The notes below the pieces were generated by a model. The model searched no databases, was not told where the DNA came from, and saw only the letters and a program-made list of their open reading frames with translations. The position numbers were made by a program, and so were the translations under genes. Source: Candidatus Sericytochromatia bacterium (GTDB lineage Bacteria; Cyanobacteriota; Sericytochromatia; S15B-MN24; JAQBPE01). From it: a stretch of DNA of 64,000 nt. Below, piece after piece: positions 46,634-48,647 of the stretch. Each line of letters begins with the position of its first letter. The first letter of the stretch is position 1. Location of the stretch: positions 1 through 64,000 of the forward strand of contig JAYKJB010000061.1 of the NCBI GenBank assembly GCA_035285325.1. The letters are read 5' to 3'.

Positions 46634-46712
46634 TGAACGCCTGCCATTTCAGCCTCGCGCGGCGTGGTGCTTGACGTTTTTTCCGGATCAAAATTCTTTC
46701 GAGGAGTGATAC

Positions 46713-48647
46713 ATGAAATCGCCCGGTACGAACCCTCTGGAGATCAAAAAACGCGACGGACGTGTCGTGGCCTTCGATCGCTCCAAGATCGTCACGGCGA
46801 TCATGAAAGCCGCGCAGTCTCTGCAGGGAAGCGATTATCGTCTGGCCGAGGAACTGACTGATCTGGTGGTGACCTCGCTTTCCAAAACCCATCCAGATAT
46901 AACCCTGCCAAGCGTCGAACGTGTTCAGGACGTGATCGAAAAAACGCTGATCGAACAGGGGCACGCCCGGACGGCCAAGGCCTTCATTCTCTACCGTGCC
47001 AAGCGAAGCCGGATCCGCGAGACACAGTCTGCCTGGATGAACCTGGTCGCAGAGAAAATGGGGAATCAGCCCAGCGAAGGAGAAGGCCCGATGTCCGCGG
47101 CCAAGCACCATGCCGTCGGATGCGCGGCAGCGAGAGACTTTTACCTACATCGCGTGCTGCGCGACCGAGAGGCGGAGGCGCACCGCAGCGGTTCCTGGTT
47201 CATGCATGCGCTCAGCCACTATGACCTGAGCCCCCACAGCGCCAGCTTGGCCCTCGCCCCTGCCTTGAAATCGGGATTTCACTGTGGCCATAGCCACTTG
47301 AGGGCCTCGCGTCGACTCGCTTCTCTGCCCGCGCTGACGTCGGCTCTGGTCCACGCCTTTCAGAACGAAGTGCATGGGGGCGGCACCATCCCTCACTTTG
47401 AATCGGCTTGGGCCGACCTGATCGATGCAGACGTCTCGTCCGAGAGCATTGACGGGGCCGTCGAGGCACTCGCCTATCATCTGAACACCAGCTTGGCCGT
47501 TGGTGCCCGCGCCTTGCCGCGAATCACGCTGCAGATCGGCCTGGATACAAGGCCCCAGGCACGCGCCATCACCTCCGCCCTGTTGACCCTGATGGGCCGG
47601 GAAGACGGCCAGAACGACATCTGGGGCGCGCCGCACGTGACGTATTGCTTGAAAGAGGGCGTCAACCTGGCCCCCGGCGACCCCAACCACGATCTCACCA
47701 AGCTGGCCTTGGCGGCCTTCCCGCACGCGTCGAATATGTCCTTCAGTTCTGAGCGCACGCCAGCTTGGCAATTCGGTCAGGTCGCCCGCCTTGCAGACGT
47801 ACCCGCAGCGCCCTGCAATGCAACCATTTTCGCCAGACTGTCGATCAATTTGCCACGGCTGATTCTGCAATCCAAGCGTCAAGGTTTTGAAACCACCGCG
47901 GCCCTGCAAACCACCATCGCGGAAGCCTACCAACACCTCACCCACAGGCTCGAAAGCCTTGCAAGGCGCCCCGCGAGGGCTTTCCCGATACTTTTGAACA
48001 CCCACCTGCCAGGCAGCCAGCCACCCGGGGCCGAGGAGGCGCTGGGCGATCGCCTGGGGCCCCCGCTGGCCTTGCTCAACCTGGTCGGGTTGTCTGAGGC
48101 GGTCTTCCTCCTCAGCGGCGTGAGACCAGAGGCGTCGCCAAGCGCACGGGCGGAAGGTGTGCAACTGATTAAAACGGCTGCACATTGCACCGCGGAGCTC
48201 TGCAGCTCGGGAAAATTACAGGTGCACCTGCAATGTACCGAGGCTCCCTTGGCCGCCAGCCATTTCGCCCGACTGGATCGCAGGGAGTTCGGCATCATCA
48301 AGGACGTGACCGACCGTCCGCGTTACACCACAGGCCTCCCAGGCGTGGACGTCAGTTCAGCCAAAGAGGAGCTTTTGGCGACGGAAGCGACGTGCGCTCG
48401 CTTGCTGAGCGGAGGCAGTTGGAGCGAATGGCCAGAAGGCCTGCCACAAGAACAGGCCCTTGACTGGCTGCAACGGGGCTACCACGAAGGGATCGGGGGA
48501 TGGGGGCGCACCCGTCTCCTCGTGGCGTGCCCCGCTTGCCGGGCAACCCTGGCCTCGACAGAGTCCCCAGGCTGCCCCGTGTGCGGGTCGACAGAGCCCT
48601 TGACCCGCGTGCCGCTCCCTCACGCTTACTGGGAGTCGGACGACTGA
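46713..48647 (+). CDS. ATP-cone protein related to anaerobic ribonucleotide reductase NrdD, apparently without glycyl-radical site
   Basis: A 644-residue protein. An N-terminal ATP-cone (about 9-100: IKKRDGRVVAFDRSKIVTAI) is followed by a region with distant NrdD features (HGGGTIPHFES; FARLSINLPRLILQSKRQ, like the NrdD strand VxINLPRIAL). A C-terminal four-cysteine zinc site is C606, C609, C621, C624. In NrdD this site is followed by RxxGY carrying the radical glycine; here the protein ends TRVPLPHAYWESDD with no glycine. The cysteine pair near the NrdD substrate site (NCC) is also not evident. No nrdG lies nearby. ATG has GAGGAG seven bases upstream. It could be a regulatory pseudo-enzyme; homology should be tested. 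Confidence 0.7.
   Translation: MKSPGTNPLEIKKRDGRVVAFDRSKIVTAIMKAAQSLQGSDYRLAEELTDLVVTSLSKTHPDITLPSVERVQDVIEKTLIEQGHARTAKAFILYRAKRSRIRETQSAWMNLVAEKMGNQPSEGEGPMSAAKHHAVGCAAARDFYLHRVLRDREAEAHRSGSWFMHALSHYDLSPHSASLALAPALKSGFHCGHSHLRASRRLASLPALTSALVHAFQNEVHGGGTIPHFESAWADLIDADVSSESIDGAVEALAYHLNTSLAVGARALPRITLQIGLDTRPQARAITSALLTLMGREDGQNDIWGAPHVTYCLKEGVNLAPGDPNHDLTKLALAAFPHASNMSFSSERTPAWQFGQVARLADVPAAPCNATIFARLSINLPRLILQSKRQGFETTAALQTTIAEAYQHLTHRLESLARRPARAFPILLNTHLPGSQPPGAEEALGDRLGPPLALLNLVGLSEAVFLLSGVRPEASPSARAEGVQLIKTAAHCTAELCSSGKLQVHLQCTEAPLAASHFARLDRREFGIIKDVTDRPRYTTGLPGVDVSSAKEELLATEATCARLLSGGSWSEWPEGLPQEQALDWLQRGYHEGIGGWGRTRLLVACPACRATLASTESPGCPVCGSTEPLTRVPLPHAYWESDD

Follow-up and report, generated by a model that had tools for sequence, protein, structure and literature searches.

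A class III ribonucleotide reductase homolog of Sericytochromatia that has lost its catalytic residues and may persist as a nucleotide sensor

Ribonucleotide reductase is essential and has long been assumed to be kept for catalysis. At positions 46713–48647 the window, by which we mean the whole 64,000-nucleotide stretch analysed here, carries a gene for a protein resembling the class III reductase NrdD, and the question which this locus raises is whether the product is still a reductase and, if not, why it has been kept. The original prediction was that it is not an active class III enzyme and could be a nucleotide-sensing pseudo-enzyme. The features of the gene and its product are as follows:

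46713..48647, + strand: coding sequence (644 aa) of an almost certainly catalytically dead NrdD, a pseudo class III ribonucleotide reductase
46700..46705, + strand: Shine-Dalgarno-like GAGGAG, the ATG lying 7 bases downstream (from the sequence)
46740..47009, + strand: ATP-cone, residues 10–99 (Pfam)
47028..47111, + strand: linker, residues 106–133, at the site of the NxN flap of active NrdDs, both Asn being lost (alignment)
47112..48437, + strand: alpha/beta barrel, residues 134–575 (profile, and a predicted fold like that of solved class III reductases)
47238..47240, + strand: Ser176, which replaces the first barrel cysteine (alignment)
47757..47816, + strand: finger loop, residues 349–368, predicted to be disordered, the thiyl position having no Cys (alignment and model)
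47847..47849, + strand: Asn379, the active-site Asn of the NLPR motif, kept (alignment)
48528..48584, + strand: zinc site, C606, C609, C621 and C624 (from the sequence)
48624..48626, + strand: Ala638 in RVPLPHAYW, the radical-glycine position (alignment)

The protein possesses Pfam ATP-cone (5.7e-21, residues 10–99) and NRDD (2e-43, residues 134–632) domains, both far above the curated cut-offs, and gives clear but sub-cut-off matches to the NCBIfam NrdD equivalogs PRK07111 (248 of 764 bits) and TIGR02487 (128.5 of 326). An AlphaFold model, for which the relatives collected in this analysis were the input, has a mean pLDDT of 81, its main internal low-confidence stretch being the finger loop, and Foldseek ranks solved class III reductases first, namely the entries of Prevotella copri (PDB 8p23–8p39) and Streptococcus thermophilus (9d3x), with a TM of about 0.7. 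By fold and descent the protein is therefore a member of the NrdD superfamily; it does not have the architecture of NrdR, in which an N-terminal zinc ribbon is followed by an ATP-cone within about 150 aa. The ATP-cone, NrdD-like barrel and four-cysteine zinc site that had been read from the sequence were all confirmed, and the structural comparison that had been proposed with them returned the NrdD fold.

The residues required of an active class III NrdD were located by alignment. Ala638, in RVPLPHAYW, aligns with Gly681 of the Escherichia coli enzyme, the motif expected here being RxxGYL; as the protein ends at residue 644, the glycyl-radical domain is without its C-terminal helix. The thiyl cysteine (E. 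coli C384) is gone, its place being taken by Gln356 or Val357, with C368 as the nearest Cys. On the first barrel strand Ser176 stands in place of the cysteine numbered C175 in E. coli, C171 in P. copri and C79 in T4, so that this strand provides no second catalytic cysteine. Both Asn of the NxN flap, which couples the state of the ATP-cone to substrate binding in P. copri NrdD (PMC11226230), are lost. The equivalents of the catalytic residues in that enzyme are C171, C416, N435 and G711 (PMC11226230). What has been kept is Asn379 and the four zinc cysteines. The original prediction placed the end of the protein where the RxxGY loop should begin: the radical glycine is indeed absent, but its position is present as Ala638 and only the segment downstream is missing. 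Since the thiyl and first barrel cysteines, both overlooked at the time, are also lost, the defect is wider than the loss of a glycine. A frameshift near 48600 hiding a normal tail, for which the prediction had allowed, was ruled out, as an RxxGYL tail is absent from all three frames past 48550.

The genome is 98.6% complete in 138 contigs. Profile searches revealed one NRDD match, the protein described here, and no second NrdD; the sole reductase found is a class II NrdJ (PRK08665, 1037.8 bits) in which no ATP-cone was detected, and the single detected ATP-cone of the genome is that of the 46713–48647 protein. An nrdG gene is not adjacent, as had been noted, nor did the profile search reveal one anywhere in the genome (no TIGR02491 match; other radical-SAM proteins only). 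The search for other nrd genes that had been suggested thus gave NrdJ but no nrdG, nrdR or second NrdD. nrdR was likewise undetected in one other member of the order, G001. The idea that a YfiD-type protein provides the glycyl radical in trans was rejected, there being no Gly_radical match in this genome or in G001 to G008. The absence of the radical glycine, of the thiyl and first barrel cysteines, of the NxN flap and of nrdG gives good support to the claim that class III activity is lacking, and as a reductase the protein is almost certainly inactive. One locus of the same genome, L057 (G000:C11), has a MoaA-like N-terminus running into DTNDKAIV repeats and then into an unrelated low-complexity protein, a structure explained either by a local join made in assembly or by recombination of a repeat.

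The order was represented by ten genomes including that of the window (G000), nine of which contain a homolog; the tenth is 64% complete. No homolog was found in other genomes of the class Sericytochromatia, outside the order. Two defects are common to the order, namely loss of the first barrel cysteine (9/9 homologs) and the want of a bona fide nrdG. Other losses vary. The position of the radical glycine holds Gly in five homologs and Ala in three, the window protein among them, while G006 is missing the whole C-terminal domain; absence of the glycine is, contrary to one expectation raised at the outset, not a conserved property. The C-terminal tail is cut in three members (the window, G001 and G004) and the finger-loop Cys is lost in three. 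In most homologs this Cys is displaced by one residue (YLSGCARI, compared with YMGCRTRV), and several members retain RxxGY together with the shifted Cys. The G007 copy (L077:4885–6942) has kept RRHSGYL with a finger loop YLSCCARI, and this genome alone in the order specifies, elsewhere (L041), a protein that weakly resembles NrdG (87.6 bits, the cut-off being 126); the G007 copy may be the least degenerate member or one with altered chemistry. A radical SAM gene behind the nrdD of G002 was examined as a candidate NrdG and discarded, its sequence being MoaA-like (CNFRCRYC).

In seven of the nine order members nrdR immediately precedes the gene and is transcribed in the same direction; in G004 the two overlap by 4 bases. 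The window gene has no link to any nrd gene, its neighbours being flagellar genes. In the window's family the surroundings are conserved at two loci (L079, L071), with fliJ/fliK-like genes on one side and AMIN-like and S8 protease genes on the other, so that the departure from nrdR is older than the split of the two genera.

The regions upstream of nrdJ were scanned with what we take to be the NrdR-box consensus. Box-like sites are paired about 43 bases apart in four nrdR-bearing members (G004, G005, G007 and G008) while G003 and G006 have one each; the window genome and G001, both without nrdR, gave no site scoring above shuffled sequence. Palindromes such as ACACTAGATGTAGCGT precede nrdJ in G004 and G003 (L024, L026). 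As the consensus is our working assumption, the co-occurrence of boxes and nrdR is a lead only, striking though the fit is; the sites are likely to represent the NrdR regulon of Sericytochromatia. The NrdR circuit seems to have been lost in the window's family, leaving the window protein as the only detected ATP-cone.

The more distant relatives were found with the order alignment as the query. The closest are in Clostridia (49–53% identity). In Caloramator, Thermobrachium and Syntrophomonadaceae the protein is intact, with every catalytic residue present in an nrdR-nrdD-nrdG operon, nrdG being identified behind nrdD by neighbourhood listing and family scan. A second set of Bacillota, comprising Dethiobacter and others (group B), specifies, in the sigG-ylmC-nrdR-pgeF locus shared with the intact Clostridia, an NrdD some 630 aa long; it has retained the barrel but has neither cysteine and no glycyl domain, and nrdG is missing at the locus. 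There Dethiobacter has an intact nrdR, another genome a truncated one, and three have none. The supposition that group B possesses no other NrdD proved wrong, since five of the six genomes carry a second, intact-looking one elsewhere. The dead NrdDs of the order form one clade and those of group B another, which the best tree separates; it does not favour a single origin for both, but the AU test does not reject one (p 0.142). The terminal branch of the window copy is about fourfold longer than that of its sister (1.25 against 0.33). Two NrdD frames of Bacillota contain intein-like inserts: in the intact lineage a frame of 1122 aa (L191, G048:C110) has its insert beginning right at the active-site cysteine motif (RSMC/LHSEENILV), and in a metagenome-assembled genome a frame of 1227 aa (L122:2619–6302) has one within the barrel after IYNLNTMHS.

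Purifying selection on the dead relatives is evident from dN/dS, calculated by the Nei-Gojobori method with Jukes-Cantor correction, with dS near saturation at these distances: 0.117 in a group B pair (L123/L133) and 0.105 in the order pair G005/G008, values similar to those of neighbouring genes, against 0.03 for one active NrdD pair. Constraint falls preferentially on the ATP-cone. The similarity of group B to active NrdDs is 0.63 in this domain and 0.38 in the barrel, the active proteins scoring 0.64 and 0.68 among themselves. The window copy has evolved 1.3-fold faster than its sister in the ATP-cone and 2.9-fold faster in the barrel, with dN/dS of 0.24 and 0.51, respectively, and its specificity-loop region is degenerate. 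It has kept 25 of the 44 residues of the barrel that are invariant in active NrdDs and 16 of the 18 of the ATP-cone. The 644-codon frame contains no stop, whereas a copy evolving neutrally over 0.4 substitutions per site would have at least 6, about 7 by estimate. In the GC-rich pair G003/G007 the ATP-cone shows no excess constraint. It is likely that the dead NrdDs are functionally retained in the relatives.

From the catalytic loss, the absence of nrdG, the synteny, the selection on dead relatives and the preferential preservation of the ATP-cone, all of which were established by computation, we infer, at about even confidence, a pseudo-enzyme kept for ATP/dATP sensing and derived from an nrdR-nrdD-nrdG operon such as present-day Clostridia possess. 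Its ancestor would have been the NrdD of such an operon; in Sericytochromatia class II NrdJ would have taken over deoxynucleotide supply, nrdG would have been lost, and the radical chemistry would have followed while the ATP-cone was retained. This domain would bind ATP or dATP and shift the oligomeric state of the protein, as in active NrdD and NrdR, and the dATP/ATP state would be reported by that change or by contact with another protein. Because flap, cysteines and glycine are gone, an oligomer change cannot gate catalysis and would have to exert its effect through another protein. Over most of the order the pseudo-NrdD would act beside NrdR, the two being encoded in one operon. NrdR and its boxes have disappeared from the window's family, where this is the sole detected ATP-cone, which would make the ATP-cone-less NrdJ the most natural target. 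That a dead class III reductase regulates NrdJ in trans through its ATP-cone, having replaced both its own catalysis and NrdR in this family, is a bolder proposal which we consider rather unlikely. No single target fits all cases, as those group B genomes that lack nrdR possess an active NrdD that itself bears an ATP-cone.

The main rival is slow decay, in which NrdD became jobless after the loss of nrdG and the window copy is drifting towards loss with no function of its own; we regard this as a serious possibility, though short of an even one. It would account for erosion that differs by lineage (glycine to alanine, tail, finger-loop Cys, and the C-terminal domain of G006), for the long branch and the barrel dN/dS of about 0.5, and for a gene standing alone after nrdR was lost. 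It sits poorly with a frame free of stops, with the low dN/dS (about 0.1) of two independent pairs of dead NrdDs, with the constraint still seen in the ATP-cone of the window copy, with presence of the gene in all order genomes but the incomplete one, and with Bacillota that retain a dead NrdD even without nrdR. The nucleotide-sensing role of the original prediction thus gains from the preserved ATP-cone, the selection on dead relatives and the nrdR linkage, and is weakened in so far as the window lineage may hold a relic; whether the window copy itself is a working sensor stands at about even odds. Alternatively, the dead NrdD could pair its ATP-cone with that of NrdR and tune assembly of the repressor at the nrd promoter. 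The shared operon in the order and in Dethiobacter, and the ATP-cone contacts through which NrdR acts (PMC9110341), would fit, but an inherited nrdR-nrdD-nrdG operon would leave the same linkage, and the dead NrdD remains where nrdR is undetected (window genome, G001) or is missing or truncated (four group B loci). We hold this to be quite improbable in general, and for the window itself it was discarded, nrdR being undetected in that genome.

A reductase or other glycyl-radical enzyme of unusual chemistry has a precedent in Thermotoga maritima NrdD (subclass NrdDh), in the finger loop of which Ile occupies the expected Cys position (PMC4493059); neither that loop nor the one described here has a Cys at the expected place. 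Retention of Asn379 and the zinc site, the order members that combine RxxGY with a Cys shifted by one, and the weak NrdG-like protein of G007 point the same way. Yet the T. maritima enzyme is active and possesses Gly621, the barrel cysteine Cys125 and an SCCR motif (PMC4493059), whereas the window protein lacks adjacent cysteines, has Ala instead of Gly at 638 and carries Ser176, and so falls outside NrdDh; Ala at residue 638 already makes a glycyl radical unlikely, and a bona fide NrdG is wanting in the window genome and the order, save for the weak candidate. Such chemistry is very improbable. An error of sequencing or assembly truncating a normal NrdD is refuted in practice: the genome is an assembly of many contigs, but no other frame holds the tail, catalytic residues are lost far upstream as well, and the same kind of loss recurs across the order and in group B.

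With the class III enzymes of P. copri (PDB 8p23–8p39) and S. thermophilus (9d3x) the window protein shares the ATP-cone, 10-strand barrel, NLPR Asn and zinc site, but not the radical Gly, thiyl Cys, first barrel Cys, NxN flap, C-terminal helix or NrdG. With NrdR it has in common the ATP-cone as nucleotide sensor and, in the relatives, adjoining genes; in place of the N-terminal zinc-ribbon DNA-binding domain it has a barrel and a C-terminal zinc site. In NrdBi of Leeuwenhoekiella blandensis an ATP-cone on the radical subunit controls a reductase that has none of its own (PMC5794259), a precedent for control by an ATP-cone located on a different protein. The NrdBi ATP-cone, however, belongs by fusion to an essential subunit of the holoenzyme it controls, whereas the one described here is carried by a dead enzyme from a different class.

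Neither this pseudo-reductase form nor the reductases of Sericytochromatia were found described in the open-licence literature searched. An automatic label of 'anaerobic ribonucleotide reductase' would mispredict anaerobic DNA synthesis in these genomes. A dead reductase preserved in two phyla, its sensor intact and its activase lost, would show that a ribonucleotide reductase can be turned entirely to regulating the supply of deoxynucleotides.
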